Virus record (IMG/VR): IMGVR_UViG_3300001533_002998
Span: 1-25,677 of that record
Length of the DNA stretch: 25,677 nt
Direction: 5' to 3' (one strand)
DNA from: a virus
Below the pieces are notes generated by a model. The model ran no database searches and had not been told where the DNA came from. It worked only from the letters and a program-made list of their open reading frames with translations. Shown piece by piece: positions 50 through 25,663 of the stretch (within the stretch, counting starts at the first letter, position 1; each line of letters opens with the position of its first letter). The position numbers and the translations under genes are program-made.

Positions 50-616
50 TTACTTTGAAAATTGTTCGTAGATTTTCCAGATGTGCTTCATTTGGTCTTC
101 AGGTATAGGATGTGGAGTACCAATCTTGTCTTTAAATTTAACTGCCCAATCCAAATCTTCACAAGAAAAACCAAATTGCTCATCATACACACCAATTTCT
201 TTAAAAGTTGCCATATTAAAAATTGGATTAGCCCCATATAAATGAGGAACAAAACCTTTTTTATCTTTAGTTAATTCAACTGCTTTTTTAAATACTTTTT
301 TATCAGCTGTTTCCACATATCCAGGAGAAACACACCAATGTTTTCCACTTAAAAGAAAAGGTAAAACACTTTCTACCCAACCATCAGCAAACCACAAATC
401 ATCGTTAAAAACACCAAAGAATTGTGCTCCCCAAGCTCGAGCATCAATAATTCTTTTGTTTAAAAGTGAACTTCCATATTCTTCTCCATCTTCAATAAGA
501 AAATTCATATTCTTAAATTTAGATGTCGTAGGAAGAAAAGTTCTTTTAAATTCAGCTAGAACTTCTGGATATTTTGATTGAACAACAAAAAATAATTTAG
601 TATCGTAAATATTCAT
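50..616 (-). CDS. GT-A-fold glycosyltransferase-like protein
   Basis: About 188 aa. It resembles the GT2-type fold: N-terminal beta strand, a conserved-looking RIIDARAWGA helix, and VFNDDLWFADGW, where NDD (residues 73-75 counted from the longer start) sits where the metal-binding DxD normally lies. A later SCEDLDWAVKF segment looks like the acceptor-side acidic motif of these enzymes. Two in-frame ATGs exist, at 622 and 616. I chose 616 because it overlaps the upstream stop in an ATGA arrangement typical of coupled translation, and neither start has a clear ribosome binding site. The protein is short for a full GT2 enzyme. Donor and acceptor are unknown. It belongs to the glycan cassette. 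Confidence 0.65.
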   Translation of the reverse strand: MNIYDTKLFFVVQSKYPEVLAEFKRTFLPTTSKFKNMNFLIEDGEEYGSSLLNKRIIDARAWGAQFFGVFNDDLWFADGWVESVLPFLLSGKHWCVSPGYVETADKKVFKKAVELTKDKKGFVPHLYGANPIFNMATFKEIGVYDEQFGFSCEDLDWAVKFKDKIGTPHPIPEDQMKHIWKIYEQFSK

Positions 617-1918: not shown

Positions 1919-2022
1919 CTCCTATTCCTTCCTTTTCTTACTTTAGGAATATTGGTATTCCCATAAAGTTTTTTGTGTCTAGCTCGTCTTTGGGTGTTAG
2001 TTCGAGGTTTACCCTTTGGCAT
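1915..2022 (-). CDS. 35-aa highly basic micro-protein
   Basis: Starts MPKGKPRTNTQRRARHKKLY and ends in RKGRNRR. There is a strong ribosome binding site (GAGGAGGTGA) and two adjacent ATGs (2025 or 2022); the ATGATG overlaps the stop of the asparagine-synthetase-like gene. Its TGA overlaps the ATG of the next GT gene. It is extremely rich in Lys and Arg with no acidic residues, so it probably binds nucleic acid or an acidic partner. It shares the MPK start and an ARxK...YG pattern with the 45-aa protein at 13297-13434, which hints at a paralogous pair. No known family recognised. Confidence 0.65.
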   Translation of the reverse strand: MPKGKPRTNTQRRARHKKLYGNTNIPKVRKGRNRR

Positions 2023-3035
2023 CATTCACCTCCTCTCAATATTTTTTCTTGATATTTCAAATAAGAACTTTTTCCAAATTCGCCATCTGTTTTCTCCCAA
2101 CCTTTAATTTTATTAACTGGCAAAAGTGGTCCACCCATCTTACCAACTCTCCAAGTAATTTCATCTGGCAAAAGATTTTTTGTTGGCCATTCTTGACCAC
2201 CATCTAAAATAAACTTAATTGGTTTTGAAGCAAGTTCCCTTAAAAAATACTTACCATACTTACCATTTCTACTAATTTTCATTTCAGGCGATAAATTAAA
2301 CATAAAATCATCAAGTTCTTTATTATCTTGATAAGGTCTGATATTCGTAATCCCAAAGTATTTAGCAATCCCATTACTCATATCATCCATTTCGGGTCGT
2401 TTTAAAATTATATCTACCAAACACATATTATTTATTAAACTCTTTTTGTTATCCCAAATCTTTTCAACTTCTTTATAAGGTAAACCAACAAGTTTAGAAT
2501 ATAAAACAATCGGAGATGATAAAATTTTATCTATCTTACCCTTGTAATTTTCAAAAGATTCAACTTCATAAATTTTAAAAATATAATTCATAATTAAATG
2601 ACGAGCATAACCACACATTGTTTCATCTGGTCCATCACCTAAAACAACATTCTTAACTCCTCTTTTAGCCAATTCCTCATACATACAATAAAGAGTAAAG
2701 ATGTTGAAATGCGGTATTGGCCTACCAATAGCCTTTACAGCCTTTTTCATTACATCATCGAACCTACTTTCATCAAATTCAACGATAATTTGCTCTGTTA
2801 GTCCATTGTCTAAATAGTCAAAAACTCTTTGAGCATATTTAAATTCATTAAACTTTTTACCATAAGGAATATGAACTGTAACTACAGCTTTGGGAAGTTT
2901 GGGATTTATCTCTTTAGCTAAAGCAAACAAAAGAGAACTATCAATTCCACCAGAAAGAGTATAAACCGCATCTTTCGGAATTTTCCTAATTTCTTTTTTG
3001 ATTAACTTTTCAAGTTGATTTGTTTCTTTATCCAT
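2022..3035 (-). CDS. Asparagine-synthetase-like amidotransferase, synthetase domain only
   Basis: 337 aa. The PP-loop of ATP pyrophosphatases is clear: YTLSGGIDSSLLFAL (SGGIDSS at 28-34). VVLGDGPDETMCGY (GDGPDE at 133-138) is the second hallmark of the asparagine synthetase C-terminal domain. The N-terminal glutaminase half (Cys-1 nucleophile) is missing, so the enzyme must use free ammonia or a separate ammonia source. In O-antigen clusters such proteins amidate uronic acids to uronamides. Next to a UDP-glucose dehydrogenase-family gene, that is a plausible job here, though an inference. The start has GGAG eight bases upstream and overlaps the epimerase gene by 34 bases. Confidence 0.8.
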   Translation of the reverse strand: MDKETNQLEKLIKKEIRKIPKDAVYTLSGGIDSSLLFALAKEINPKLPKAVVTVHIPYGKKFNEFKYAQRVFDYLDNGLTEQIIVEFDESRFDDVMKKAVKAIGRPIPHFNIFTLYCMYEELAKRGVKNVVLGDGPDETMCGYARHLIMNYIFKIYEVESFENYKGKIDKILSSPIVLYSKLVGLPYKEVEKIWDNKKSLINNMCLVDIILKRPEMDDMSNGIAKYFGITNIRPYQDNKELDDFMFNLSPEMKISRNGKYGKYFLRELASKPIKFILDGGQEWPTKNLLPDEITWRVGKMGGPLLPVNKIKGWEKTDGEFGKSSYLKYQEKILRGGE

Positions 3036-3958
3036 TTATAAGTCTCCTTCATTCCAACTTCTAAAGGAACTTTTTCTGTCCATTTTAATAATTCTTTAGC
3101 TTTAGTATCATCAAAATTTCTACCTCTAATTCCCTGTGGACCTTCAATATGTTTAATCCCCAATTTCTTACCAGAGATTTTAATAATCATCTTGGCAAAA
3201 TCATTAATAGAAATATGCTCATTCTTCCCTAGATTAACTGGTTCTCGCACATCTGAATTCATTAAAGTATAAATTCCTTCTAAATTATCATTAATATACA
3301 TAAAAGAACGAGTTTGTTTACCATCTCCCCAAACCTCAATATCTTCGCCATCTTTAGCTAAAATAACTTTACGACACAAAGCGGCTGGAGCTTTTTCCCG
3401 ACCACCTTCATATTCACCTTCTGGACCATAGCAGTTCTGAAATCTAGCTATCCTTGTTTCCAAGCCATATTCCTCATAATAATATTGACAGCGGATTTCA
3501 TGAATAAGTTTTTCCCAACCATAACCTTCTTGGGGAAAAGCTGGTAAAGCATCTTCTTCTTTCAATAAAGGTGGATTGATATCTTGAAGTCGATGAACTG
3601 GATAAACACAAACTGAACTAGAAAAGAAATACTTTTTAACTTTGTTTATTCTACTTGCTTCTAAAGTGTAGATATTGATTAAAGAATTATTGTGAAGAAT
3701 TCGGGCACTATTACCCATAATAAAACCCATTCCACCCATGTCAGCAGCTAAATTATAAACTTCATCTATATCTTTAGTTGCTTTCAAGCAATTTCCCCAA
3801 TATCTTAAATCCATTTTTAAAAATTCATCTGCAGGTGATTTACTCCATTTCGGATATTTTAAATCAACACCACGAACCCAATATCCCTTTTCTTTAAGGA
3901 ATTTAACCAAATGACTTCCAATGAAACCACCAGCTCCACAAACTAAAATACGCTTCAT
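3002..3958 (-). CDS. NAD-dependent sugar epimerase, GDP-mannose 3,5-epimerase-like
   Basis: 318 aa short-chain dehydrogenase/reductase. GAGGFIG (8-14) binds NAD. Several stretches match what I know of plant GDP-mannose 3,5-epimerase: NLAADMGGMGFI (69-80), SSSVCVYP with the candidate acid/base Cys117, YGWEK (Tyr146 and Lys150), GGREKAPAALCRK with Lys189 as the second acid/base, GDGKQTRSF, and GIRGRN (277-281). That enzyme converts GDP-D-mannose to GDP-L-galactose or GDP-L-gulose. The ATG overlaps the upstream dehydrogenase stop (ATGA). A generic NDP-sugar epimerase remains possible, but the paired Cys and Lys acid/base sites favour the 3,5-epimerase reaction. Confidence 0.85.
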   Translation of the reverse strand: MKRILVCGAGGFIGSHLVKFLKEKGYWVRGVDLKYPKWSKSPADEFLKMDLRYWGNCLKATKDIDEVYNLAADMGGMGFIMGNSARILHNNSLINIYTLEASRINKVKKYFFSSSVCVYPVHRLQDINPPLLKEEDALPAFPQEGYGWEKLIHEIRCQYYYEEYGLETRIARFQNCYGPEGEYEGGREKAPAALCRKVILAKDGEDIEVWGDGKQTRSFMYINDNLEGIYTLMNSDVREPVNLGKNEHISINDFAKMIIKISGKKLGIKHIEGPQGIRGRNFDDTKAKELLKWTEKVPLEVGMKETYKWIKKQINLKS

Positions 3959-4770
3959 TTTTCCTTTCTAAATCTACGATTAGATTTCCAGACTTCTTCT
4001 AAAAACTTCGGCTTATAGCCTTTATCTTTACACAATTTAATCAAAGCTTTTAAATCTTTTGGAAAACACTTTCCCCCAAAACCTCTTGCCTTTTCAAAAA
4101 CAGAAGTATGAGTTTTTTCTACTCTTGGGTCTAATGCCCAACCTTCACGCATAGCATCATAATTAACTCCTAAAGTTTTACAAATTTCAAAAAATTCATT
4201 AGCCCAAGTAACCTTAGTTGCTCCCCAAATATTCTCAGCATATTTAACTAACTCCGCAGTTTTAGCATCTGTCTGATAGTAAAAAGTTCTCGGATTAAAA
4301 ACAGGTTTAAAAACAGAAATACAATAAGCTGTATCTTTAGAGTCGCCACCAAATATCTGAAAAGGCCAAGCTCTAGGATTAGACCATTCTTCAGGTAAAA
4401 AGTATTTACTCTCACCAAAATATTCAGGCGAAACAACGATTCTTTTCTTGTATTTCTTTTTAAGGTAATTAGTAGTCCCAGGTGGTATAGCAGATTTAAT
4501 CAAAATTACAGGCGTTTTTAGCCATTTAACACTTTCCTCAACAATCGAGGTATCACAAGACCAATCCTTGTTTTCTTTAGTCATCACACAAACAATTCCT
4601 AAATCACATTTATTAACAGCTTCTTTTGAATTAGTTAAACCATTAGAAACAAAAGGGTCATAAATTGCTTTTACCCAATCACCAAAAACTTGATGCATCG
4701 CTTTACCAACATGACCATAACCAACTATTCCAATCGTAAATTCACCATGACTAATAATTTTATTTTTCAT
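3955..4770 (-). CDS. UDP-glucose/GDP-mannose dehydrogenase family, short form
   Basis: 271 aa. FTIGIVGYGHVGKAM (11-25) is the NAD-binding Rossmann start. YAENIWGATKVTWANEF (177-193) matches the conserved helix with catalytic Lys186, and GFGGKCFPKD (230-239) carries the nucleophile Cys235. These enzymes oxidise a nucleotide sugar at C6 to a uronic acid in two steps. The usual members exceed 400 aa; this one stops shortly after the Cys motif and lacks the C-terminal domain that completes the nucleotide-sugar site. All catalytic residues are present, so it may be active with a changed substrate or a partner. It lies between a GT gene and the epimerase. Confidence 0.85.
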   Translation of the reverse strand: MKNKIISHGEFTIGIVGYGHVGKAMHQVFGDWVKAIYDPFVSNGLTNSKEAVNKCDLGIVCVMTKENKDWSCDTSIVEESVKWLKTPVILIKSAIPPGTTNYLKKKYKKRIVVSPEYFGESKYFLPEEWSNPRAWPFQIFGGDSKDTAYCISVFKPVFNPRTFYYQTDAKTAELVKYAENIWGATKVTWANEFFEICKTLGVNYDAMREGWALDPRVEKTHTSVFEKARGFGGKCFPKDLKALIKLCKDKGYKPKFLEEVWKSNRRFRKEK

Positions 4771-4772
4771 TT

Positions 4773-5894
4773 TTACTGCTTTTTATAAACAAATTCTGAT
4801 AAATTTTGTCTGATAAAAACATCTAAGTCTTTCTGATATTTTGATTTCTCATAAGCTTCTTTAGCTTGTGGTGATTGTCTCATTAAATCTAGCCAAGTAT
4901 CATGATAAATTAACATTGAGCCATTACACTTTCCATGTCTCTCCATATTCTTTTTATCCCAAGGTCTTTCTGTTAAGAGTTGATTAAAAGTCATCTTTTT
5001 ATGTTTATCAACAAAAGCTCTGTCAAGAGCATATTCCTTTTCTCCCCTAGCCATAATCTTATCCAAGACTTCCTTTCTACCATTTCTAAGATAATTCAAA
5101 TAAGTTCTTTCCCGCCAGTCATCACAACTCAAGGCGTAAGTTACTCCTAAAACATTTTCAATGTAATCATCGTGATTATAGGAATAACCTCTACCTGAAG
5201 CTAAATGAAAACCAATAGCATTAGGATTAATAGCTACCGTTGAGTTAAACATCCACCATTTCATATCCAAATAAAATTCACCGCCACCATAAGTTCGATG
5301 AACTTTGGGATAACCACCAAATTTAAAAAACTGGTCTTTTAAGACAGCTATCGAACAATGTCCTTGAGCAGGAATATACCACCAATCATTTGTTAATTTA
5401 TAATTATTCCAAGTTCCCTTCCATTCTTCACCTAGTTTAATGGTATAAGAATAACCAGTTCCCTGTGCTGTTATAGGATAAGCCCCCATCCAAGCAATAC
5501 AACCATGAACCAATCCACCAGATTCGTCAACCGTTCTTAAAATCTCTTTAAAGAAACCAGGCTTATAAGCCATATGAGCATCAGAAAAAAAGAGATACTT
5601 GCCTCTGGCTATCTTTGCTCCCTTGTTTCTAGCCGAATGATTACCTGCTAAAGGGTCTCTAATAATCCTCAAAACAGCATTGTAATACATACTCCTACCT
5701 TCTAAATAAGAAGTTGTTCCCGCTGTTCCTCTTTGAGGAAATTTATCATCATCAGAACAATTATCCACCACAATAATTTCTATCTCTTTAAAATCAAAAC
5801 CATCAGCTTCCCAACAATTTAGAATTGAATAAATTGTATGAACTATATTTGGAAACTCATTTCTTGCTGGAATAATAACACTCAATTTAATCAT
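4773..5894 (-). CDS. GT-A glycosyltransferase resembling polypeptide GalNAc-transferases
   Basis: 373 aa, with no membrane segment. SVIIPARNEF (5-14) and EIIVVDNCSDD (39-49) are the GT2/GT27 nucleotide-binding start. YLFFSDAHMAYKPGFF holds DAH (105-107), the DxH metal motif typical of polypeptide N-acetylgalactosaminyltransferases rather than the usual DxD. YGGGEFYLDMKWWMF (202-216) and NPNAIGFHLASGRG (224-236) occupy the places of the GGEN...W and SRVGHxxR motifs of those enzymes. Such enzymes attach GalNAc to Ser or Thr of proteins. The likeness is by motif spacing, not a computed alignment, so an ordinary GT2 role is possible. Its ATG overlaps the upstream stop (ATGA). Confidence 0.75.
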   Translation of the reverse strand: MIKLSVIIPARNEFPNIVHTIYSILNCWEADGFDFKEIEIIVVDNCSDDDKFPQRGTAGTTSYLEGRSMYYNAVLRIIRDPLAGNHSARNKGAKIARGKYLFFSDAHMAYKPGFFKEILRTVDESGGLVHGCIAWMGAYPITAQGTGYSYTIKLGEEWKGTWNNYKLTNDWWYIPAQGHCSIAVLKDQFFKFGGYPKVHRTYGGGEFYLDMKWWMFNSTVAINPNAIGFHLASGRGYSYNHDDYIENVLGVTYALSCDDWRERTYLNYLRNGRKEVLDKIMARGEKEYALDRAFVDKHKKMTFNQLLTERPWDKKNMERHGKCNGSMLIYHDTWLDLMRQSPQAKEAYEKSKYQKDLDVFIRQNLSEFVYKKQ

Positions 5895-6058
5895 TTTACC
5901 TTTTCTTCCTTTTTAGCCTCTTGATACATTTTTCTAATTTCTCTAGCAATTAAATAATCAGTTCCCATTTTAAACCATCCTTCATCTACAAACATAGTTG
6001 ACCACTTTTCTATCGCATTTTTACCTTTTTTACCAATTCTAATAACAAATCTTTTCAT
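5891..6058 (-). CDS. Small basic hypothetical protein
   Basis: 55 aa, starting MKRFVIRIGKKGKNAIEKW and ending in a charged helix (REIRKMYQEAKKEEKVK). A longer start at 6073 exists, but the ATG at 6058 forms a TAATG junction with the methyltransferase stop and is the more likely start. Its stop overlaps the next GT gene start. No family recognised and no cysteine or membrane motifs. Its position inside the glycan cassette suggests an accessory role, but nothing in the sequence shows one. Confidence 0.6.
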   Translation of the reverse strand: MKRFVIRIGKKGKNAIEKWSTMFVDEGWFKMGTDYLIAREIRKMYQEAKKEEKVK

Positions 6059-6993
6059 TATTTTGGATTCCACACTTTCGCTAGAATAGGTGTATGAGTT
6101 GTCTCTTTAATCTCTTCATAAGGTATTTCTACTCCAATCGCATTATGAAATTTAATATTATTAAAAAATTCGCTTAAAACATTGTAGAATTCAGGAGCAT
6201 TCCACTCTCTTACATGATATTTATTATGAGGCGTATTTTTTTGAATATGTTGATTATTTCGGTTAGGAGTGCTAATAAAAAATTCAGTCGGATTAATTAA
6301 ATCATAATTACCATTTTTATCTTTTCTAGTAAACTTATTGATAATTGTTTTTAAGAATGTTTTATAATCGTTAATGTGTTCAATAATCTCAATACAAACC
6401 ACCAAATCAAACTTCATTGTTTCTCTCGTATCTTCAAAAATATCAATATGGTCAAAAGAAACTTGGGAAGAATAATAAATTTGGTTTCTAGTCCTTTCAA
6501 AACATTGTTGAGCAAACCTTATACTCTTTTCATTTTTATCAATTCCCCAAACAAAATCCGCTTCTTGAGACATAATATTTGAACCTACTCCACAACCACA
6601 ACCAATATCTACAATCTTTGGTCGCCAAATAAACTTAGGATATTGAGGATGTTCCGTAATTTTTGTTAAACAATAATCCTTAATATAGGTATATAGTTGA
6701 CGAGTTGGTTTCCAGAGAATAACTCCGTGCCTTTCAAATAATCTAACATTAGTCGCCCATTGCTCCTTATCTTCAGCTTCTGGATTTTCCACATAATTAG
6801 ATTCAGTAATACCATTTTTACCTACTTCTCCTATTTCTATCTTAGGTTTTACTATTTTACCAGCAAATAACATTTCATTTTCCTCAACTTCTACTTTTTT
6901 ATCCTTTTCTTCCAATTTTTTATAACACTCATCACAAAGACTATTAACATAATCTTCTGGTATTTCTTTACCACATCTTTCACAAGTTCTCAT
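6058..6993 (-). CDS. SAM-dependent methyltransferase with N-terminal zinc ribbon
   Basis: 311 aa from the start chosen here. A further upstream ATG at 7032 would overlap the preceding gene by 53 bases and has no ribosome binding site, whereas ATG 6993 has GAGGAGG six bases upstream. Residues 4-23 carry CERC...CDEC, a small zinc ribbon. After a linker, IVDIGCGCGVGSN (127-139) is the SAM-binding motif I, WGIDKNE (149-155) the motif II acid, and FDLVVCIEIIEHI (195-207) the post-II segment of class I methyltransferases. Sugar-modifying methyltransferases of this type are common in glycan clusters. The zinc ribbon fusion is unusual. The substrate is unknown. Confidence 0.8.
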   Translation of the reverse strand: MRTCERCGKEIPEDYVNSLCDECYKKLEEKDKKVEVEENEMLFAGKIVKPKIEIGEVGKNGITESNYVENPEAEDKEQWATNVRLFERHGVILWKPTRQLYTYIKDYCLTKITEHPQYPKFIWRPKIVDIGCGCGVGSNIMSQEADFVWGIDKNEKSIRFAQQCFERTRNQIYYSSQVSFDHIDIFEDTRETMKFDLVVCIEIIEHINDYKTFLKTIINKFTRKDKNGNYDLINPTEFFISTPNRNNQHIQKNTPHNKYHVREWNAPEFYNVLSEFFNNIKFHNAIGVEIPYEEIKETTHTPILAKVWNPK

Positions 6994-8266
6994 AAGCCTC
7001 CTCAATAGCTGGGATAAGTTGATGTTTAGCAATATAATCTACATTAAACTCTTTTCTTAACTTAGTATTAGCTTTCAAAGACTTATTCTGATTCATTTCT
7101 GAAATTATCAACTTAGCTACATCTTCCAAGTATTTATCCTGACCTAACGGATATTGAGGCCTATCAACTAAAGAACCAAATCTAAAATATAAAGCATTTT
7201 CACCTGCAAAATCCCTCATGGCTGGAAAACTGTAATTAAGAATTAAAAGACATTTAGATGCCATTGCTTCTTTTAAAATCAAAGGTGAAGCCTCACTAAC
7301 CGAAGGGAAGATAAAGAGATTAGAAAGTTGAAACAAATCTGTCACTACTTTTCTAGGAACTCCTTGTTCATACTTGGGAGCATTGTGTAATGAAGTAAAA
7401 ATCAATTCTCTTCTTTCAACACCACAATCAGCAGCAAAACGATACATTTGTTCAATTTCTTCTTTTTGCTCTTGAGCATTAGCATGAGCATTGGGAACGA
7501 TAATACGAATAGAATTCCCCATTTTTTTAATGTAACTCATAATCCAAATAACTTTACTTAATTGTTTGCCATTATCATTCATTCTAGTTGTGGAAAGCGG
7601 GTAAACATCAATATAATCAGCTGACATTAAATCGTATTGTTCAATCAATTCTCTTGTAATCGGGTCAAAATCATAAAGTTCCCTAATATCCATCATATTA
7701 AAAATAGTTCTTACATCTTTAGGAAAAATACCAAACATCTCTGCAGCTCGAACAACATCAGTGTAATTAAGATAAATTAACCTTGAATTTTTAGGTAAGG
7801 TAAAAAGATTATCGTAAGGAGAACCATCCATTGTTGGTCTCAAAGAAGGAGCTGAATGTATCCAATGAAGCCATTTGATATGAGACAATCCTTCTTCAAT
7901 TCCTCGCCTCATTGCTTCATTGTAAGGAAGATAAGAATTAATGAAGATAATATCTTGAGTTAAGCAAACATCAATATCTTTCATATTTTCTTCCATCGCT
8001 TTTTTAGCTTTATTAACATCAGCTTCAAAATTCTTTAAATCACCCTTAGTATAAGGCTCTAAAATCAACTTGGGTAAAACTTTTCTGATTTCCACTCCTT
8101 TAGGAACTTTCTCATCATCTTCAAAATTCTCTAAAACAAACAAAACAGGTTCATACCCATATTTAACCAAAGCTATTAAAAGCTGTTGAGTAACAGAACA
8201 CAACGAAAAAGCTGGACTAAAATTTGAAAAGGTAGTTAAAATTCCCGTTTTAATTTTTTTATTCAT
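6980..8266 (-). CDS. GT-B glycosyltransferase, family 4-like
   Basis: 428 aa. The N-terminal half begins IKTGILTTFSNFSPAFSLCS, the glycine-poor start of a GT-B Rossmann domain. The C-terminal half has IIVPNAHAN, then LFIFPSVSEASPLILKEAMA, in which Glu325 and Glu333 form the EX7E signature of retaining GT4 enzymes that bind the nucleotide sugar. The domain ends with a helix returning to the N-terminal half (EEAYENL). No membrane segment. It is the first gene of the glycan cassette, starting two bases after the preceding small gene. The donor is unknown. Confidence 0.82.
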   Translation of the reverse strand: MNKKIKTGILTTFSNFSPAFSLCSVTQQLLIALVKYGYEPVLFVLENFEDDEKVPKGVEIRKVLPKLILEPYTKGDLKNFEADVNKAKKAMEENMKDIDVCLTQDIIFINSYLPYNEAMRRGIEEGLSHIKWLHWIHSAPSLRPTMDGSPYDNLFTLPKNSRLIYLNYTDVVRAAEMFGIFPKDVRTIFNMMDIRELYDFDPITRELIEQYDLMSADYIDVYPLSTTRMNDNGKQLSKVIWIMSYIKKMGNSIRIIVPNAHANAQEQKEEIEQMYRFAADCGVERRELIFTSLHNAPKYEQGVPRKVVTDLFQLSNLFIFPSVSEASPLILKEAMASKCLLILNYSFPAMRDFAGENALYFRFGSLVDRPQYPLGQDKYLEDVAKLIISEMNQNKSLKANTKLRKEFNVDYIAKHQLIPAIEEAYENL

Positions 8267-9427: not shown

Positions 9428-9724
9428 TCAAATATAGGCAATAGCTAATTTTGAACTTGTACCTGTTAAAGTCGCATAACAAGCAGTAGAAAAAACAATT
9501 GGTTTAACAAAAGAAATACTTACACTTCCATATTGAGGTGCTCTTAAAACCCATTTGGCTGTTCCAGAACCATCAGTAGAATTATCTAAAATCACAGTTG
9601 CCCCAGTCGCAGCCGTTCCACCATCTAAAGTAATGGAAGAAATAGCACAAGAAGCAGTTCCATTAACCTGACCACTTTCAGTTAAAACTTTCGAATTATT
9701 TTCTGTTTCTAAATGTATAATCAT
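9428..9724 (-). CDS. Small beta-rich probable virion protein
   Basis: 98 aa with alternating hydrophobic and Ser/Thr/Gly residues (ATVILDNSTDGSGTAKWVLR, GSVSISFVKPIVFST), as expected of an all-beta surface protein. No cleavable signal or membrane helix. It overlaps the stop of the preceding Ser/Thr-tailed paralogue and so is part of the same translational unit. A head decoration or fibre-associated role is inferred from position and composition only. Confidence 0.7.
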   Translation of the reverse strand: MIIHLETENNSKVLTESGQVNGTASCAISSITLDGGTAATGATVILDNSTDGSGTAKWVLRAPQYGSVSISFVKPIVFSTACYATLTGTSSKLAIAYI

Positions 9725-10062
9725 TATGCTCCTGTTGTTGTCGAACTTGAACTGGTACTAGTACTTGTTGACGAACTCGTTGAACTAGATGTACTTGAAC
9801 TTGTACTTGTTGAAGTCACCAAAGTCTCTAACAACCTTACCCAAACTGCTGTTTTTCCACTAGTTTTTGTTTGAACATAAAACATTCCCCGATAAAGCGT
9901 ACTCTTAATAAAAGCCATCTCCCCACCTCTCCATTCAATAATATCAGCATCAACATCAGTTGAACTAACATCATAATAATCATAAGGAGTTGATGGCAAA
10001 ACCGTCACGATTTTAGCGTTTGCTCCTAATGTATTTAATTCATCAAGTTTTGTAAGACCCAT
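9724..10062 (-). CDS. Ser/Thr-tailed virion-type protein, paralogue 3
   Basis: 112 aa. The globular part shares LDELNTLGANAKIVTVLPST, then WRGGEMAFIKS, RGMFYVQTKTSG and WVRLLETLVTSTS with the next two genes upstream. Residues from about 85 to the end are nearly pure Ser and Thr, ending STTTGA. This copy has the longest tail. A good ribosome binding site (GGAGAAT) precedes the ATG. The three genes are clearly tandem duplicates just downstream of the major capsid gene, so decoration protein or short fibre are the best guesses. Ser/Thr-only tails are natural targets for O-glycosylation. Confidence 0.78.
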   Translation of the reverse strand: MGLTKLDELNTLGANAKIVTVLPSTPYDYYDVSSTDVDADIIEWRGGEMAFIKSTLYRGMFYVQTKTSGKTAVWVRLLETLVTSTSTSSSTSSSTSSSTSTSTSSSSTTTGA

Positions 10063-10066
10063 ATTA

Positions 10067-10372
10067 TTATTCTCCTGTTGTCGTGCTACTTGAACTTGTA
10101 CTTGTGCTTGTAGTAGTACTAGTCGAAGTAGCTAATGTTTCTAATAATCTTGTCCAAATAGCCGTTGTACCACTAGTTGATACTTGAACATAAAGCATCC
10201 CACGATAATCACTACTACCTGTTTTCATAAAAGCCATTTCCCCGCCTCTCCACTCAGTTGAATCAACATCATTAGAAGCTACCCCGTAATATTGATACGG
10301 AGCTGTTGGTAAAGCCGTTACGATTTTCGCATTGGCACACATAGCATTTAATTCATCAAATTTTGTTACCAT
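10067..10372 (-). CDS. Ser/Thr-tailed virion-type protein, paralogue 2
   Basis: 101 aa. Same layout as its neighbours: FDELNAMCANAKIVTALPTA, WRGGEMAFMKT, RGMLYVQVSTSG, WTRLLETLATSTS, then a Ser/Thr tail of about 20 residues ending TTTGE. It differs from the other copies mainly in the loop after SNDVDS and in tail length. The ATG is preceded by GGAGAATAATA. The gene is separated from the others by only two to four bases, so the three are co-translated from one message. Confidence 0.78.
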   Translation of the reverse strand: MVTKFDELNAMCANAKIVTALPTAPYQYYGVASNDVDSTEWRGGEMAFMKTGSSDYRGMLYVQVSTSGTTAIWTRLLETLATSTSTTTSTSTSSSSTTTGE

Positions 10373-10374
10373 TA

Positions 10375-10701
10375 TTATTCTCCTGTTGTTGTTGAACTAG
10401 TACTTGTACTAGTACTAGTTGAACTACTTGTAGTAGAGCTTGTACTTGTACTTGTACTAGTAGCTAAAGTTTCTAACAATCTAGCCCAAAGAGCTGTCGT
10501 TCCACTAGTATTCAATTGTAAAAAGAATTGTCCACCATAACTTCCACTTTTAATGAAAGCTAATTCACCACCACGCCACTCTTGATTATTCGTATCATTT
10601 GAAGACACATTCCAATAAATCTCTGGCGAGGTTGGTAAAGCGGTAACAATCTTGGCGTTAGCCGTAATCGCACTAATGTTATCAAATTTTGTTGCACTCA
10701 T
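10375..10701 (-). CDS. Ser/Thr-tailed virion-type protein, paralogue 1
   Basis: 108 aa, the first of the three tandem copies after the capsid gene. FDNISAITANAKIVTALPTS, WRGGELAFIKSG, GGQFFLQLNTSG, WARLLETLATSTS, then about 27 Ser/Thr residues ending TTTGE. The globular part is well conserved among the three while the tail length varies, as expected if tails expand and shrink through the repetitive DNA that encodes them (ACTAGTACTAGTAC-type repeats). The product is presumably exposed on the particle. It follows a terminator-like hairpin at 10711-10771. Confidence 0.78.
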   Translation of the reverse strand: MSATKFDNISAITANAKIVTALPTSPEIYWNVSSNDTNNQEWRGGELAFIKSGSYGGQFFLQLNTSGTTALWARLLETLATSTSTSTSSTTSSSTSTSTSTSSTTTGE

Positions 10702-16473: not shown

Positions 16474-18927
16474 TCAAGCAGGATAAATAGACCTTTTGAG
16501 CTTAAAGTTTCTCCTCTCTTTAAACTTTGGCGGAAAAGTCAATTCCAACTGGGAAGCCAGAGCATCAACCATGTCATCATTCTTGCCTTTGGGAAAACGC
16601 CTGATTTCGTCTTCAAGGTAATCGTTGTTAGCCACCTGCTTACAATGAAAAACCGAGCCAGTTTCGTATCTTGGTTCTAAACCTCTAATCCTCTGGTCTT
16701 TAGTTTTATCACTATGGGTCAACTCTTTCAAGGGAATAAAGTGGTTTTGCTTTTTCATCTCCTCGTAAGCAAAATATTGGAGGGTTTTCTGAAAGGCGGT
16801 TGTTTCAATGCCAACACTGATTGGTTTCCATTTGGAATCCCAGTAAAAGAGCTGGTCCAAAAGTCTTTTCGGCTGGCATTTCTCCCGCCACAAATCCAAA
16901 ATGTACCAGTTATTCATTTTATCCACTCCAACGCAAACCATGGCTGAATAGTCAGCTTCCTTCTTCTCACTGATGGCAGGGTCAACGGTAATAAACCTGT
17001 TTAAATCCACGCCTGTTAAATCCGTTTTCTCGTAATATTTAAAATCGAATTTAAAAACAGCGTCTTCAGCCAGAATCGGGTCTAACATGTACTGAGCTGC
17101 AAAGTGAGATGAACCTTGTTGTCTTTTCAATCCATCTAGAACATCCCAGCTTAGACGAGCAGGAAAGAGTAGTTTTCCTTGTCCCCATTCACCTTCGTAA
17201 GCAGGCATTTTCAAAACCTTAAAATCATCCAGGATGTTGTTTTCCTTGTCTTGTATCCAAGCGTAAAGGTCGGAATAATGCCAGGTAGTGTTATGGACAA
17301 CAAATCCTTCAGCAATAAAACTATGCTCACCTTCAACTGATAAATCATAAACTTCCTGTTCACCAATCTTCTTAATTGACCTTACAAATGTTTCTTCAAT
17401 TTCTTTAGGTTTATTTTTATCAAAATAAATGTAACAATGATGCGTATTAGACAAAATCTCATATTTTGAATGTGGAGCTTTTATGAATCTTTCTCTTGAA
17501 GAAATGTTATTTACTCTTAGTCCTGTGATAATTGCTAACCTTCTTATACCCTCAGCTAATTCTTTACTTGAAACTTCATAAGCAAACGTTCTTGTTCCAA
17601 CCCTACTTTTCCAAACATGATGTCCACTCTTCTCTTTTTTTATTTCCCAACCATCAGCATCAAGAAAACCCTGAATAAATTGTTTTCTTATTTCTGGATT
17701 CTGCTCAAAAATAAACGAAGGAACTTTTTTATTATGTGCTCCTCTTTCCAAACCATGTTCCAAAAGCCATCTACCTAATTCAGCCGAAGTCGTTACCCAA
17801 TTACCGTTCTTACATAAAAACTTACAACCAAAATTCTTCTCGAAAATATCTTTTATCTTATGGTTTCTATCATCATAAACACCCATGGCTATTCCAACAA
17901 CGTATCTTAAACTACCTTTCTGGTTAGGATGTAAAGTTACCCAACCATCACCAACCATATAACCTAAAGCCCACGATAACTCTTCACTAATCTCATTCTT
18001 ACCATCTTTTTTATAATGATAAAAAGAAATTTTATCTCCCTTTTTTAGTTCTTCCATTTTTACCCAAATGTTATTTCTTAAAAAGGGATGATTTTTAGTT
18101 CCTATTATCTTAGAATTATTTGTTCTTAATTCATAAACTTCAGAAACTCCTTGAGAAACATTAGCTGTAACTACTTTATTTCCTTTCCTTGTCTTTACCA
18201 TCTCTCCAGCGTTTATATCTTCAATGTTTTTCCAACCACCATTTGCCATTAAAACTTTAGTTCCAGAAACGAAACAACCAATGATGATGACTTGTTTATG
18301 ACCACCAGCCTTGCTGTCAACCAAGTCCAAAGTCCCTTTGTAAAAGTTAATCACCTTCTCTATCTGTTCCCGAGTGGTGATGTTTTTGTCGTTGACCATG
18401 TCATCCAAAAGAGCCATATTGTAGTGAGAACCAACAACGTTGGTGTCAGCCCCAAAAGCGGAAACAGTCGGGTCTTTCTGCTCGTAAGACTTTTCCCTAG
18501 CCACGGTAATCCTGTTTTCCCGCCAGCTGTCAGCCATTGTCGCCAAATTACCAAAAAGGTCAATGAAGGTTTCGTTCTTCTCCAGATGGTCTTTAACCTG
18601 TGATAAAAATTGACAAGCCATGGGATAAGTCGCATTGGCAATCAAAATCCTTTCGTTTGGGTTTTGAGCTATTCGCCACAAAGTATAGCCAACAGTTACG
18701 ATAGAAGATTTGAAAGAACCTCGGGGAAGAAGGATAAGCAGTTTTTTCTTGTTGACGTTGTCCTGAACAAAATTACAAACCTGGCGATGCAAAGGCTCGT
18801 AGATGTCAGGCCATTTCAAAACATCTCGGTTAAACTCGTAAAAGTGGGTTAGGTAATATTGAATCTTAGCCTGTTTAACCGCCTCTTGGGTCTTTTCTAT
18901 CTGGTCAATGATTTCTTTTTTATCCAT
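16474..18927 (-). CDS. terL: Large terminase subunit (TerL) interrupted by an intein
   Basis: 817 aa precursor; about 488 aa after removal of the 329-aa intein (residues 218-546). The ATPase half has Walker A LLPRGSFKSS (66-75) and Walker B MALLDDM (171-177). After splicing, VIIIG joins TTWHYSDL, the GTxWHxxDL motif that couples ATP use to DNA movement. The nuclease half carries FITVDPA (Asp649), VGIETTAF (Glu708) and KNDDMVDAL (Asp784/785/788). The protein packages DNA into heads with the small subunit. A weak AAGAAAG site precedes the ATG, which lies in a 17-base tandem duplication. Confidence 0.95.
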   Translation of the reverse strand: MDKKEIIDQIEKTQEAVKQAKIQYYLTHFYEFNRDVLKWPDIYEPLHRQVCNFVQDNVNKKKLLILLPRGSFKSSIVTVGYTLWRIAQNPNERILIANATYPMACQFLSQVKDHLEKNETFIDLFGNLATMADSWRENRITVAREKSYEQKDPTVSAFGADTNVVGSHYNMALLDDMVNDKNITTREQIEKVINFYKGTLDLVDSKAGGHKQVIIIGCFVSGTKVLMANGGWKNIEDINAGEMVKTRKGNKVVTANVSQGVSEVYELRTNNSKIIGTKNHPFLRNNIWVKMEELKKGDKISFYHYKKDGKNEISEELSWALGYMVGDGWVTLHPNQKGSLRYVVGIAMGVYDDRNHKIKDIFEKNFGCKFLCKNGNWVTTSAELGRWLLEHGLERGAHNKKVPSFIFEQNPEIRKQFIQGFLDADGWEIKKEKSGHHVWKSRVGTRTFAYEVSSKELAEGIRRLAIITGLRVNNISSRERFIKAPHSKYEILSNTHHCYIYFDKNKPKEIEETFVRSIKKIGEQEVYDLSVEGEHSFIAEGFVVHNTTWHYSDLYAWIQDKENNILDDFKVLKMPAYEGEWGQGKLLFPARLSWDVLDGLKRQQGSSHFAAQYMLDPILAEDAVFKFDFKYYEKTDLTGVDLNRFITVDPAISEKKEADYSAMVCVGVDKMNNWYILDLWREKCQPKRLLDQLFYWDSKWKPISVGIETTAFQKTLQYFAYEEMKKQNHFIPLKELTHSDKTKDQRIRGLEPRYETGSVFHCKQVANNDYLEDEIRRFPKGKNDDMVDALASQLELTFPPKFKERRNFKLKRSIYPA
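17290..18276 (-). mobile_element. LAGLIDADG-type intein inserted in terL
   Basis: Codes for residues 218-546 (329 aa). Splicing blocks are clear: block A starts CFVSGTKVLMANGG (Cys1); block B reads GTKNHPFL; block F reads EVYDLSVEGEHSFIAEGF; block G ends VVHN, followed by Thr as the +1 extein residue. Between them are two LAGLIDADG helices, LSWALGYMVGDGW and FIQGFLDADGW, each with an acidic residue, so the homing endonuclease looks intact. Insertion is exactly inside the GT of the GTxWH motif. The coding bases are more AT-rich than the flanking terL exteins, consistent with separate arrival. Confidence 0.95.
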
Positions 18928-19500: not shown

Positions 19501-19738
19501 AATTCCTTTTTAAAATGCCTGCCAGCCAAGCGGCTATCTTCGTCTGCGGCAGCTCTTTTAAGCTGTATTCCCCTTCCCGATTGTAAACGCTGGTTACCAC
19601 CTTAACCTCATCCCAGCTCTCAACTATCTCCGTCAAAAAAATCCTCAGAGGCTTGTTCTTGTTTTCCTCCTCCTTTTTGGCTTTGGTTCGATTGTATTCC
19701 CGCCAGGGATGGTCGGCTTTAGGTACTTGGTAACCCAT
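19493..19738 (-). CDS. Small hypothetical protein
   Basis: 81 aa. MGYQVPKADHPWREYNRTKA is followed by a Lys/Glu/Asn-rich stretch and a folded end (EVKVVTSVYNREGEYSLKEL, TKIAAWLAGILKRNYG). The last helix is amphipathic. It starts at a TAATG junction with the zinc-ribbon gene, so it is translationally coupled. No family recognised. Confidence 0.65.
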   Translation of the reverse strand: MGYQVPKADHPWREYNRTKAKKEEENKNKPLRIFLTEIVESWDEVKVVTSVYNREGEYSLKELPQTKIAAWLAGILKRNYG

Positions 19739-19941
19739 TAATCTTCATCCTCCTCGTTTTCAAAACTATCTTCTTCAGGCCACTTCTCTTCTGGTAAATC
19801 AAAAGTCACATCCTGAAGGTTACCACAGAACTGACACTCAGCGTAAAAATGGTCTTTCGGTTTGTTAAAAACACCTTCCTCCAAGACCTCAGCCTCTTTG
19901 TTTTCGTTACCACACTCATCACAAATAAAATCGACTTCCAT
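19738..19941 (-). CDS. Zinc-ribbon protein
   Basis: 67 aa. FICDECGNENKE (C8, C11) and AECQFCGN (C37, C40 by count) form a four-Cys zinc ribbon, followed by a strongly acidic tail (EEKWPEEDSFENEEDED). Such ribbons bind nucleic acid or the transcription machinery. The ATG has GAGGGAG six bases upstream; that ribosome binding site lies inside the 3' arm of the long stem at 19943-20050, so its translation may be gated by RNA folding. It is the first gene after the structured leader. Function unknown. Confidence 0.72.
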   Translation of the reverse strand: MEVDFICDECGNENKEAEVLEEGVFNKPKDHFYAECQFCGNLQDVTFDLPEEKWPEEDSFENEEDED

Positions 19942-19942: not shown

Positions 19943-20050
19943 TTTGCTCCCTCAAAGCTGGACAGAACCTTAGAAGACGAGTCAAACTTGTCTTTAAGTC
20001 ACAAACAAGTCTAGAAAGGAGGTGAGTCTATCCAGCTTTCAAAGAGCAAA
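19943..20050 (-). ncRNA. Structured leader with boxA-like site and 16S-3'-end-like sequence
   Basis: On the minus strand the element begins TTTGCTCTTTGAAAGCTGGA (20050-20031), which contains GCTCTTTGAAA, a good match to the boxA of many rRNA operons. This 20-mer pairs with TCCAGCTTTGAGGGAGCAAA (19962-19943) at 19 of 20 positions, counting two G-U pairs. The 68-base loop holds TCACCTCCTTTCTAGA, which together with the preceding GCTGGA equals the conserved 3' end of 16S rRNA except for five inserted bases (TAGAC). The 3' arm contains the ribosome binding site of the gene at 19941. A further hairpin (ACTTGT/ACAAGT) sits in the loop. Role as antiterminator or switch is inferred. Confidence 0.6.
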
Positions 20051-21084: not shown

Positions 21085-21113
21085 TTGACAAGATATGACA
21101 AGTATGATAATAT
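21085..21113 (+). promoter_or_regulatory. Main rightward promoter
   Basis: TTGACA (21085-21090), 17 bases, TAATAT (21108-21113), with TATGA just before the -10. Perfect -35 and near-perfect -10. Its sequence resembles the promoter at 24711-24739 (shared TTGACAAG, ACAAG and TATGATAA), so both may form one phage promoter class. The expected start is near 21120, at the base of an 8-bp hairpin. Confidence 0.82.
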
Positions 21114-21365
21114 CTAAAGTAGATAGTAAGACAGAACTATCTAAGCACATTGAAAGCCAAGAGGCTAAGCCGAAGAGAGGACAAGCTATTATAAAACGCT
21201 TTGCTTCGTATTGTTTAGCCTCTTGTTAAGCAGGTTAAAACTGAAGACAACATAATAAAATGTCTAGTTGGTGAGATAATTTCAAAAGTCAGACCGCTTT
21301 GACTTGCTTAATAAGGAAAATAAAGTTATTAGCACATTTAAAAACTAGTCAGAAAGCGAGGTAAA
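21114..21365 (+). promoter_or_regulatory. Structured 5' leader of the rightward operon
   Basis: About 245 bases without a gene. It begins with a perfect 8-bp hairpin TAGATAGT/ACTATCTA (21120-21127 with 21136-21143), which would cap the 5' end of the mRNA. Next is an 11-bp stem CAAGAGGCTAA/TTAGCCTCTTG (21158-21168 with 21215-21225) that encloses nested CGAAG/CTTCG and AAGC/GCTT stems. A third hairpin AAGTCA/TGACTT follows near 21290. This is too much structure for chance. It may be a stabilising or regulatory leader; no known riboswitch was recognised. Confidence 0.6.
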
Positions 21366-21545
21366 ATGACAGAAGAAAAAAAGAAAAGAATGTTTGAAAA
21401 TATCTATGACTTAATTAAGGGTGGAAACTTTGAGGAGGAAGCAAAAAAAGAATTGAGAGGATTTATCAAAAATAAGCATATAGAATGGGATGGAGATAAT
21501 AATACTATCTCATTGGGAAAGTATTTTAAGTTTAAGTTAGTTTAA
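21366..21545 (+). CDS. Small hypothetical protein, first gene of rightward operon
   Basis: 59 aa: MTEEKKKRMFENIYDLIKGG, an acidic/basic helix (FEEEAKKELRGFIKNK), then two likely strands ending GKYFKFKLV. A GCGAGG site stands just before the ATG. No family recognised. As the first gene behind the main promoter it should be expressed early and strongly, which in phages often marks a host-takeover or anti-defence function; that is inference only. Confidence 0.7.
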   Translation: MTEEKKKRMFENIYDLIKGGNFEEEAKKELRGFIKNKHIEWDGDNNTISLGKYFKFKLV

Positions 21546-21554
21546 TTTTTTATC

Positions 21555-21585
21555 TTGCCTCTTGTTTGACTAGGACAAGGGGCAA
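21555..21585 (+). promoter_or_regulatory. Intergenic hairpin 1
   Basis: TTGCCTCTTGT (21555-21565) pairs with ACAAGGGGCAA (21575-21585) over 11 bp with one T-G wobble and a nine-base loop. No T-run follows, so it is not an intrinsic terminator. It lies between the first gene and the boxA-like site. Confidence 0.65.
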
Positions 21586-21600
21586 CATTAAGAGATTAAA

Positions 21601-21614
21601 GCTCTTTAACAATT
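21601..21614 (+). promoter_or_regulatory. boxA-like antitermination site
   Basis: GCTCTTTAACAATT is identical over 14 bases to the boxA region of the E. coli rrn leader, where NusB-S10 binds to make RNA polymerase ignore terminators. It lies in the leader of the 120-aa gene, 46 bases before its ATG. Most of it is also part of the 5' arm of a 26-bp stem (21605-21630 with 22046-22071). No phage antiterminator protein was recognised nearby, so host factors would suffice. Confidence 0.6.
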
Positions 21615-22071
21615 AAAAACTGGAGGCGGAAATCCTACTGAAAGGAGGATTAAACGCTTATGTATAACAAAAAGAAGCTAATGGAAGTTTATCAAGAAGC
21701 TAAGGGTGATAATAGTTATTATAGCTTTGATAAATTCATTAAAGACGCCAAAAGCTATTTAAAAGATATTAAAGCCGAAAAAGTCATTGCTTCAATGAAA
21801 GTCAGCCGAAGCGGTATGACAAGACGCTTTAATACTCAGCATTATAATATGCTTTTGAATATCTGTTATAACCAAAAATTTAGTTGGGACGAGGTAAAAG
21901 TTGGCGGTTGTGGAATGGATATGTGGTGGTATTTACTATTTACGACTTGCGAGAGATTGACGGATACTCAAAAAGATAGCTTTAATTACAATTCAGCTAG
22001 TAGTTATCAAACAATTCTGTAAAGTAAATTATCTTTTTATTTTAATCCGTCTTCAGTTTTTAATTGTTAAA
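21605..22071 (+). repeat. 26-bp inverted repeat flanking one gene
   Basis: Bases 21605-21630 (TTTAACAATTAAAAACTGGA and on to GGCGGA) pair with 22046-22071 (TCCGTC... to ...TTGTTAAA) without interruption: 24 Watson-Crick and two G-U pairs. The arms lie just before and just after the 120-aa gene at 21660-22022, so the RNA would loop out this whole gene, as pre-16S rRNA is looped out in rRNA operons. Both differences between the arms keep pairing as G-U, which points to selection on RNA rather than DNA. Confidence 0.8.
21660..22022 (+). CDS. Hypothetical phage protein looped out by a 26-bp stem
   Basis: 120 aa. IKAEKVIASMKVSRSGMTRR, then NQKFSWDEVKVGGCGMDMWW and LLFTTCERLT. Proteins with the ASMxVSRSGMTR and VGGCGMDM patterns are, as I recall, scattered through phages and plasmids without a known role; the conserved Cys and Met-rich loop could form a binding site. 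An AAAGGAGG site lies 11 bases before the ATG and can partly pair with AATCCT upstream (21631-21636), so translation may be damped until the RNA unfolds. The gene lies just after the boxA-like site. Confidence 0.8.
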   Translation: MYNKKKLMEVYQEAKGDNSYYSFDKFIKDAKSYLKDIKAEKVIASMKVSRSGMTRRFNTQHYNMLLNICYNQKFSWDEVKVGGCGMDMWWYLLFTTCERLTDTQKDSFNYNSASSYQTIL

Positions 22072-22086: not shown

Positions 22087-22218
22087 ATGAATAAATACGA
22101 AATACAATACAAAAATGGTAAAAAGATAATAGTTGAAGCGAAAACAGCTCTTGAAGTAATCAAGAGATACGACTTATGCACTAAAGAGAATATGTCAACA
22201 AAGTTAAAACAATTTTAA
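22087..22218 (+). CDS. 43-aa hypothetical protein
   Basis: MNKYEIQYKNGKKIIVEAKT then ALEVIKRYDLCTKENMSTKL and KQF. It reads as two beta strands and a helix, like a tiny ferredoxin-half or a small binding domain. AAAGGAG stands eight bases before the ATG, just after the 3' arm of the 26-bp stem. No family recognised. Confidence 0.68.
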   Translation: MNKYEIQYKNGKKIIVEAKTALEVIKRYDLCTKENMSTKLKQF

Positions 22219-22233: not shown

Positions 22234-22698
22234 ATGAACCAACAAGCAAGAAATTGGAAAGCTATTAATAACAAAGCCATTGTCAACAACATTGAACAAG
22301 TTTTTAAAAGCAATGACATTAATAAATTAAATAAGCCTACTTATCAATTTGTGATGAATTTAGGCGGATTTATAGCTCATTATGACTTATACGGATTTCA
22401 AGACCATTATCAAGATTTAAGAGATTTTGCTAGAGATTTGCTTGATAGTTGTACTGAAAATGACGCTAATTATGAGCTAGACGATGATTTTATTAAATGG
22501 TATGGCTTAATTTATTGCCAAAGTAAAAAAGACGCAATAAATGGCATAAGAGAAGTAGTTTTAAAATATAAAAATGATGTTTCTTCTTCTTGTGAAAGTG
22601 AAGATGAGAAGAAATTAAATAAAATTATTGCTCTAGCCAACGAAGTTAAAAGAAGAAACGACCCAGCAACGACAAGAGAGTTTTTAAAGGCGATTTAA
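22234..22698 (+). CDS. Hypothetical protein, mostly helical
   Basis: 154 aa. WKAINNKAIVNNIEQVFKSN, VMNLGGFIAHYDLYGFQDHY, LRDFARDLLDSCTENDANYE and a Lys/Glu-rich end. The FIAHYDLYGF stretch, with its His and Tyr, is reminiscent of small phage proteins of unknown function. AAAGGAGG stands close to the ATG. No catalytic motif recognised. Codons and AT content match the neighbours. Confidence 0.78.
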   Translation: MNQQARNWKAINNKAIVNNIEQVFKSNDINKLNKPTYQFVMNLGGFIAHYDLYGFQDHYQDLRDFARDLLDSCTENDANYELDDDFIKWYGLIYCQSKKDAINGIREVVLKYKNDVSSSCESEDEKKLNKIIALANEVKRRNDPATTREFLKAI

Positions 22699-22705
22699 TT
22701 TTTTC

Positions 22706-22729
22706 TTCTGCTTCTTTATAGAGGCAGAA
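22706..22729 (+). promoter_or_regulatory. Intergenic hairpin 2
   Basis: TTCTGCTTC, loop TTTATA, GAGGCAGAA: nine pairs including one T-G wobble at the same place as in the hairpins at 23842 and 24331. It follows the stop of the 154-aa gene and precedes the next ribosome binding site, with no T-run. Confidence 0.65.
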
Positions 22730-22759
22730 ATAAGAAGTTAAGGAAAGGAGGTAAAAACT

Positions 22760-23829: not shown

Positions 23830-23833
23830 TTTG

Positions 23834-23869
23834 ATTGTTTCCCTTGCTTCTTTATAGAGGCAAGGATAA
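23834..23869 (+). repeat. 36-base repeat, copy A, with hairpin 4
   Basis: Identical over 36 bases to 24323-24358. It contains CCTTGCTTC, loop TTTATA, GAGGCAAGG (nine pairs, one T-G wobble). Flanking TTTGATTG (23830-23837) and CAATTAAA (23871-23878) lengthen the stem by eight more pairs. It sits between two genes, with the next ribosome binding site just after. Confidence 0.8.
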
Positions 23870-23894
23870 GCAATTAAAAGAAGGAGGTGAAAAA

Positions 23895-24323
23895 ATGACG
23901 AGGGCAAATTTAAATTTTGTCTATGATGACAAGGGGAAAGAAACCATTTTATATTACTATCAAAATGGCGACCAGTATCCAAGAGGGATAAGAGACTTTT
24001 ATCATATTCTTGATTGGCTCAATGATGAGAATAAATTTAATGCTAAAGGATTTAGAGAATGGTTAGGAGCTAATTATAAAGAGACCAAAGCTATTGCTTA
24101 TAAAAATGGCAATATGACTTTAGTTTCTAATTATGAGCCAACAGAAATCCCAGCAAAGCCAGAAAAAAAGACTTTTACAATTATGGGAGATTTGACAGAT
24201 TATAGTTATCTTTTTGACTCAATTCATAATAAGGTAAAAGTTTTAGAATGGGAAGAAACAATTTTTGAGGGCACAAGGCAAGAGTTTTGTAAGTGGTTAA
24301 AGAACTATAAAGAGGAATTTTAA
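23895..24323 (+). CDS. Hypothetical protein
   Basis: 142 aa from the ATG at 23895, chosen because AAGGAGGTGA stands directly before it; an upstream ATG at 23835 lies inside the intergenic hairpin and has no such site. MTRANLNFVYDDKGKETILY, QYPRGIRDFYHILDWLNDEN, then YKETKAIAYKNGNMTLVSNY and FTIMGDLTDYSYLFDSIHNK. Alternating strands and helices suggest a two-part alpha/beta fold. No family recognised. The stop overlaps the second copy of the 36-base repeat. Confidence 0.78.
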   Translation: MTRANLNFVYDDKGKETILYYYQNGDQYPRGIRDFYHILDWLNDENKFNAKGFREWLGANYKETKAIAYKNGNMTLVSNYEPTEIPAKPEKKTFTIMGDLTDYSYLFDSIHNKVKVLEWEETIFEGTRQEFCKWLKNYKEEF

Positions 24324-24358
24324 TTGTTTCCCTTGCTTCTTTATAGAGGCAAGGATAA
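24323..24358 (+). repeat. 36-base repeat, copy B, with hairpin 5
   Basis: Identical to 23834-23869, again placed between a stop codon and the next ribosome binding site. The hairpin CCTTGCTTC/GAGGCAAGG is extended here by TTTAATT (24319-24325) with AATTAAA (24361-24367). The outer pairs differ in base from copy A but still pair. Confidence 0.8.
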
Positions 24359-24381
24359 ATAATTAAAGAAGGGAGGAAATT

Positions 24382-25213: not shown

Positions 25214-25663
25214 ATGAAGAAATATAAATTAACTAAAGAAACTAAAACAGAATACGGAATTAAACTTTACCGCATTGAAGCTCTAAGGGACTTTGGTAAT
25301 GTGAAGAGAGGAGAAAAAGGTGGTTGGATAGAGAAAGAGGATAATTTAAACCAAGAAGGTGATGCGTGGGTTTATGGTAATGCGTGGGTTTTTGGTAATG
25401 CGGAGGTTTTTGGTAATGCGGAGGTTTATGGTAATGCGAGGGTTTTTGGTAATGCGGAGGTTTTTGGTAAGTTAAAACTTATCGGTGGCTATTTTTACCA
25501 TACCAAACGAAAGACCGAAGAAATAGAAAAGGTTGAATTAAGTGAAAATTACGAAATCCTTTGTAGCGAACCAAAACTGGAAGAAGAGGAAGATGATGAT
25601 TTATCAGGTGAGGAAGTAGAAGTTAAGATTAAAGGAAAAACCTATAAAGCAATTATTCAATGA
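25214..25663 (+). CDS. Hexapeptide-repeat (left-handed beta-helix type) phage protein
   Basis: 149 aa. The N-terminus YKLTKETKTEYGIKLYRIEA, LRDFGNVKRGEKGGWIEKED is a pattern I know from many phage proteins that carry these repeats. Residues about 50-85 are six repeats of G-[ND]-A-x-V-[YF], like rungs of a left-handed parallel beta-helix, encoded by six 18-bp units. A charged C-terminal part follows (EEEEDDDLSGEEVEVKIKGK). Their function is unknown; the repeat can change length by slippage. AAAGGAG precedes the ATG. Confidence 0.8.
   Translation: MKKYKLTKETKTEYGIKLYRIEALRDFGNVKRGEKGGWIEKEDNLNQEGDAWVYGNAWVFGNAEVFGNAEVYGNARVFGNAEVFGKLKLIGGYFYHTKRKTEEIEKVELSENYEILCSEPKLEEEEDDDLSGEEVEVKIKGKTYKAIIQ
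25361..25468 (+). repeat. Six tandem 18-bp repeats
   Basis: Units of the form GATGCGTGGGTTTATGGT / AATGCGGAGGTTTTTGGT follow one another exactly in frame, six times, inside the gene at 25214. The near-identity of DNA, not only protein, indicates recent expansion. Confidence 0.85.

Follow-up and report, generated by a model that had tools for sequence, protein, structure and literature searches.

The window analysed here is the whole 25,677-base stretch (35% G+C) of IMG/VR virus record IMGVR_UViG_3300001533_002998, which to judge from its gene content comes from an uncultured tailed phage. The leftward-transcribed genes include the large terminase (containing an intein), the portal, the major head protein, and the terminase small subunit (terS), and a rightward early operon of small genes begins at ~21.1 kb. 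Relatives were identified by portal-protein alignment, giving 33 loci in viral contigs; the comparisons below use a set of 14 phages, the window plus 13 loci of related phages, the records of which are mostly fragments. Isolated phages are matched only distantly at the protein level and indicate mixed hosts, and a search for the host found neither portal relatives in genome contigs nor a match to the pattern GYTCTTTAATATAGCAAGTCAA in genomes.

The intein in the large terminase gene (16474–18927, minus strand) is ~318 residues long and has homing-endonuclease matches (Pfam Intein_splicing and Hom_end). It is absent from most of the relatives, and gaps of 0.9–1.0 kb are present at the corresponding position of the gene in L021, L029, and L033. 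Downstream of the major head protein gene there are tandem, related small ORFs (9428–10701, minus strand), some with Ser/Thr-rich tails (STSTSSS), and similar small ORFs are found in L006. The left part of the window (1–8266, minus strand) is a run of glycosyltransferase-like, UDP-glucose dehydrogenase-like, epimerase-like, and amidotransferase/NAD-synthetase-like genes. Near the right end, an ORF at 25214–25663 (PHROG 5070, with relatives in many phages) has an internal 18-nt tandem repeat (25358–25465) encoding hexapeptide repeats of the type GNAxVF/Y. Near-identical hairpins of the TTGCTTCTTTATAGAGGCAA type are located upstream of several rightward-operon genes (22694–22751, 23830–23887, and 24319–24376), and similarly arranged hairpins are found upstream of early genes in L012 and L014. 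These are not terminators but perhaps processing sites.

The boxA sequences of the divergent operons

A promoter-like site of the sigma-70 type (TTGACA-17-TAATAT; 21085–21113, plus strand) is recognizable by its consensus match only at the start of the rightward operon, and the first ORF codes for 59 residues (21366–21545, plus strand) and has an SD-like GAGGT. The 5′ leader proper (~21118–21365) contains two further helices (z −3.6) together with a promoter-proximal boxA-like sequence, GCACATTGAAAGCC (GCACATTGAAA), that has one mismatch (21145–21158, plus strand). This is followed by a stem (21158–21170 with 21213–21225), a layout that recurs in L018. The second leader helix (21221–21239 with 21298–21316, plus strand) has a degenerate boxA, and its arms resemble those of the modules in L012, L014, and L028 described below (AAGCAGGTTAA / TTGACTTGC).

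The first-pass annotation had reported an exact rRNA-operon type boxA farther downstream, and this is correct in all 14 positions: GCTCTTTAACAATT at 21601–21614 (plus strand) is identical to the leader boxA of E. coli K-12 rrnB, where the same 14 bases are 130–143 bases upstream of the 16S gene. It is the single exact copy in the window, compared to 0.0011 expected on both strands under a first-order Markov model. The same annotation had placed rRNA-type boxAs in untranslated leaders of both divergent operons. Both copies are indeed in non-coding RNA, but the rightward one is not in the 5′ leader; it lies in a non-coding gap (21546–21659) between the 59-residue ORF and an ORF of 120 residues (21660–22022, plus strand) with no assigned function and for which no relatives were found, 59 nt upstream of the ATG of the latter.

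What had been missed is a long helix, and this is stronger evidence than the boxA word. A 26-nt inverted repeat (92%) has its 5′, or leader, strand at 21605–21630, starting inside boxA, and its 3′, or trailer, strand at 22046–22071 (both plus strand), such that the 120-residue ORF is enclosed and the trailer ends 15 nt upstream of the ATG of the next ORF, a 43-residue reading frame immediately 3′ of it (22087–22218, plus strand). The helix is present in the MFE fold (z −6.3), and a small hairpin, AATCCT/AGGATT (21631–21656, plus strand), covers the Shine-Dalgarno (SD) sequence of the 120-residue ORF (AAAGGAGG).

The leftward boxA, GCTCTTTGAAAGCT (20034–20047, minus strand), is in the gap between terS and an ORF of 67 residues (19738–19941, minus strand) encoding a Cys-rich, zinc-ribbon-like protein; the promoter is weak. 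The leftward copy mentioned in the first-pass annotation is taken here to be GCTCTTTGAAAGCTGGATAGA starting at 20047 (minus strand), which is similar to the context of the 23S boxA in E. coli, TATTTGCTCTTTAAAAATCTGGAT, and 0.05 copies of its 11-mer GCTCTTTGAAA are expected in the window. Here too there is a helix, of ~20 bp, with a 5′ strand that includes boxA (20027–20047) and a 3′ strand (19943–19966) that holds the SD (GAGGGAG) of the 67-residue ORF, the start of which is immediately 3′ of the helix; it is found within the MFE fold (z −4.4). The loop contains CACCTCCTTTCTA (20012–20024, minus strand), which is complementary to the Shine-Dalgarno sequence in the manner of the 16S rRNA 3′ end (anti-Shine-Dalgarno), and which is too short to claim as captured rRNA. 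When plasmids were searched by BLAST with the leftward leader, two matches were obtained, both at chance level.

Related modules in other phages

We refer to the rightward and leftward modules of the window as WIN+ and WIN−. It had been expected that close relatives would have boxA at the matching place, and this is borne out for the rightward operon: a module is present in the leader divergent from terS in seven of the 14 phages (the window, L006, L012, L014, L018, L028, and L036), and the divergent region of the other seven contains no module in its first 2.6 kb. It fails for the leftward copy, as in L012, L014, L015, and L016 almost no gap separates terS from the zinc-ribbon gene and no boxA is present there. 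In L014 two modules occur in tandem, TAGTTCTTTAATATAGCAGGTTAA...TTAACCTGCAATATTAGA and TAGCTCTTTAATATAGCAAGTCAA...TTGACTTGCGGTATTAGAGAATTAA, immediately 3′ of a TTGACA/TATAAT promoter-like site (leader fold z −8.3), L012 has a single 5′ strand with two possible trailers, and L028 has nearly identical words at 41% portal identity. At the matching place L018, L035/L036/L040, and L006 have GCAC(C/T)TTAAAA or GTACTTTGA. Judged by GYTCTTTAANA, the gamma-proteobacterial boxA consensus as given in the account of such sites in PMC5725501 and one that may not be that of the host, the window has one match (GCTCTTTAACA at 21601) and there are others in L012, L014 (two), and L028, whereas the words of L006, L018, and L036 and the leftward GCTCTTTGAAA deviate.

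The helices are ~17–30 bp with loops of 43–415 nt, and fold z values range from −3.6 to −8.3. In L006 boxA is just upstream of the helix, as in rRNA, whereas helix and boxA overlap in the remaining modules. The trailer ends 5–20 nt upstream of an ATG in nine of ten arms, and it contains an SD opposite boxA in WIN−, L018 (AAGG), and L036 (AAGGGA), but the SD is outside the helix in WIN+ and L028. Positions 1 (G) and 4 (C) of boxA are kept in WIN+, L018, L036, and L006; its first bases are mostly unpaired in the first three and upstream of the helix in the last, and still read G-Y-W-C.

An exact search of viral contigs with both window words gave no matches, and the ORF enclosed by the rightward helix has no relatives, so that the module sequence must change quickly between phages. 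No Rfam family was found in the window (with nothing near the gathering score) or in six relatives, and no rRNA is enclosed by a helix.

Two further hairpins are present in the leaders of relatives. One, TAAATCAGYCCGTAACTGATAAGCCTTRG, is conserved between the promoter and boxA in L018 (4840–4920) and L036 (6180–6260, minus strand), and also in L040; it has no Rfam match and is present in only four viral contigs. The other, ATCCCGC-TCTTACCG-GCGGGATTTTT in L036 (6125–6160, minus strand), resembles an intrinsic terminator and is immediately 5′ of the boxA module, which suggests an attenuator; a boxA located farther downstream could not help there.

Enrichment of boxA at helices and the strand of pairing

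The two copies in the window could by themselves be chance occurrences, and it is the relatives that settle the matter. When every [CT]TCTTT[AG]A occurrence in the window and its relatives was ranked by downstream helix, the best six of 250 were all leader copies. Conversely, among 129 strong helices collected regardless of sequence, eight open with the strict word GYTCTTTRA where 0.11 are expected, a ~70-fold enrichment, and six of the eight are independent. A relaxed word, G[CT][TA]C[TC]TT[AG]A, has 41 matches in the 14 phages; nine have helices scoring 38–63, all in operon leaders, and none of the others exceeds 26. The relaxed word has no match on the antisense strand of the divergent regions, and 60 dinucleotide-shuffled sets of the divergent leader regions gave no strong module. 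The relaxed word was chosen after L018 and L036 had been seen, such that this last comparison is not blind for those two; the strict-word enrichment is unaffected.

Over 11 helices read in the transcribed strand there are 34 G-U and five A-C oppositions, which argues that the helix forms as RNA, and the opposite strand scores lower wherever it is above the reporting threshold. Among the modules of L012, L014, and L028, two of 24 pairs are doubly compensated, in a comparison of only five sequences, and nine of 500 shuffles reach the covariation score. The L018 and L036 helices differ by one inserted pair (ACTTGG/CCAAGT versus ACTGG/CCAGT), which is suggestive, but a set of this size is too small to claim covariation.

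A possible rRNA-like leader module

In rRNA, boxA is bound by the host NusB-S10 complex. The phage modules share with bacterial rRNA leaders (rrnTAC; PMC10250234) the boxA word, the rightward copy of the window agreeing with E. coli rrnB in 14 of 14 positions, and a helix of ~17 bp or more, the leader strand of which follows directly on boxA or overlaps it and the trailer strand of which lies past the segment enclosed. The leader strand TATCAGACAATCTGTGTGGGCAC of E. coli rrnB comes directly after boxA and pairs with the trailer GTGCTCACACAGATTGTCTGATAG behind 16S in the leader-trailer helix (PMC10250234, Warner et al.), and the tandem modules of L014 recall the 16S-23S order of an rRNA operon. 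In contrast to rRNA operons, the phage modules are carried by mRNA, enclose a short ORF or 43–129 nt of RNA rather than rRNA, have trailers that precede start codons, and often have a helix that overlaps boxA. T7-type RNase III sites are local hairpins without boxA between early genes. They too are long hairpins located where genes meet in an early phage operon, whereas the helix described here closes over as much as 415 nt and comes with boxA.

We consider it moderately likely that the phage mRNA carries at this site a leader module resembling that of rRNA operons, acting in host-factor (NusB-S10) antitermination and in processing, and the early operon of this phage and several of its relatives thus probably borrows the host rRNA transcription machinery. 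Host NusB-S10 would bind boxA of the nascent phage RNA and load the Nus complex on RNA polymerase, and this complex would shield the long, structured early transcript from Rho. With boxA tethered, the enclosed segment would loop out until the trailer emerges and the helix closes, as proposed for pre-16S rRNA; in L012, L014, L028, and WIN− the finished helix buries boxA, and NusB-S10 could therefore act only before the trailer is synthesized. The closed helix may then be cut by RNase III, or modulate translation of the following gene, or both. The trailers ending 5–20 nt before an ATG suggest that this later closure serves processing or the timing of the next gene.

The first-pass annotation had proposed that long operons are protected from both Rho and hairpin termination using host factors only. 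In the window, the plus strand of the early operon showed no site resembling an intrinsic terminator, so that what would be read through here is Rho-dependent termination rather than hairpin terminators. Both this lack of a terminator needing to be overcome and the absence of modules from seven of the 14 phages count against the rRNA-like module. The data are compatible with the use of host factors only, inasmuch as Q (PF06530), Antiterm (PF03589), and NusG-like (PF02357) proteins were found in none of the 14 phage records, which are mostly incomplete. No N protein was seen among the early ORFs, although this record is a fragment and N-type proteins are too small and variable for reliable recognition, which leaves room for one.

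The main alternative is that function resides in the helix, boxA being incidental, with a pyrimidine-rich 5′ strand (CUCUUU, CCUU) pairing with the purine-rich ribosome-binding sequence of the next gene and, independently of Nus factors, controlling translation or creating a site for RNase III cleavage. The position of the trailers so close to start codons also fits plain translational control, as do the SDs found opposite boxA in WIN−, L018, and L036. We nonetheless think it rather unlikely, since pairing does not need the full GYTCTTTRA, and yet the unpaired first bases remain G-Y-W-C and the strict word is so strongly enriched at strong helices; nor does it explain the SDs outside the helix in WIN+ and L028.

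Improbable, too, is that the purpose is not antitermination but Nus-dependent translational control like that of suhB, where NusB-S10 at a boxA near a start codon would repress the next ORF. At suhB, boxA represses translation, and boxAs less than 50 bp from start codons are described as widespread in the account used here (PMC5725501). The short distance from the rightward boxA to the ATG at 21660, and the SD hairpin directly 3′ of boxA, are in keeping with this, and suhB and other non-rRNA sites are also similar in having boxA near the mRNA start with the host Nus complex as expected reader. But the leader-trailer helix does not figure in what is drawn from that source, whereas in the phages helix and boxA recur together, and the conserved long helix reaching the next gene would be left unexplained.

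A lambda-type nut site, at which boxA acts only together with a boxB hairpin and an N-like protein from the phage, is very unlikely. BoxA is common to nut sites, lambda nutL and nutR (boxA-boxB, N protein) and the sites of mEpimmI phages (PMC11893012) are likewise in leaders of divergent phage operons, and N-like proteins are also known from Nus-dependent phages that are not lambdoid (PMC11893012). Here, in contrast, the boxA is of the full rRNA type and is followed by a long-range helix of at least 17 bp rather than by a short boxB-like hairpin at the usual place, and no antiterminator was recognized, the Q, Antiterm, and NusG families included. Finally, a chance word, or inverted repeats acting as DNA (terminal repeats of a mobile unit at 21605–22071, 467 bp, or operators), is scarcely credible: the window copies alone are weak evidence, given the 0.05 copies expected of GCTCTTTGAAA, but nine leader modules in seven phages compare with none in shuffles, and the transcribed strand gives the stronger helix in every case, with G-U and not A-C pairs, a bias that rules out operators and, together with the differing contents in relatives and the lack of a target-site duplication at the arms, a mobile element.

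Returning to the rRNA-like module, the boxA words, the helices, their co-occurrence in relatives, the strand bias of pairing, and the trailers before start codons are observed, and binding, antitermination, and cleavage would follow by analogy. A broader proposal can be put forward tentatively, namely that this is a clade of phages with modular rRNA control units in its early leaders, which use the host antitermination complex without a phage antiterminator and in which the helix gates the next gene co-transcriptionally or serves as its processing site. What is known of Nus-dependent antitermination in phages comes chiefly from N and nut sites. If the proposal is true, boxA and the leader-trailer helix would be a portable unit, the users of boxA outside rRNA would extend to early phage mRNAs, and these modules would provide a small natural construct with which to ask what the helix does apart from ribosome assembly.
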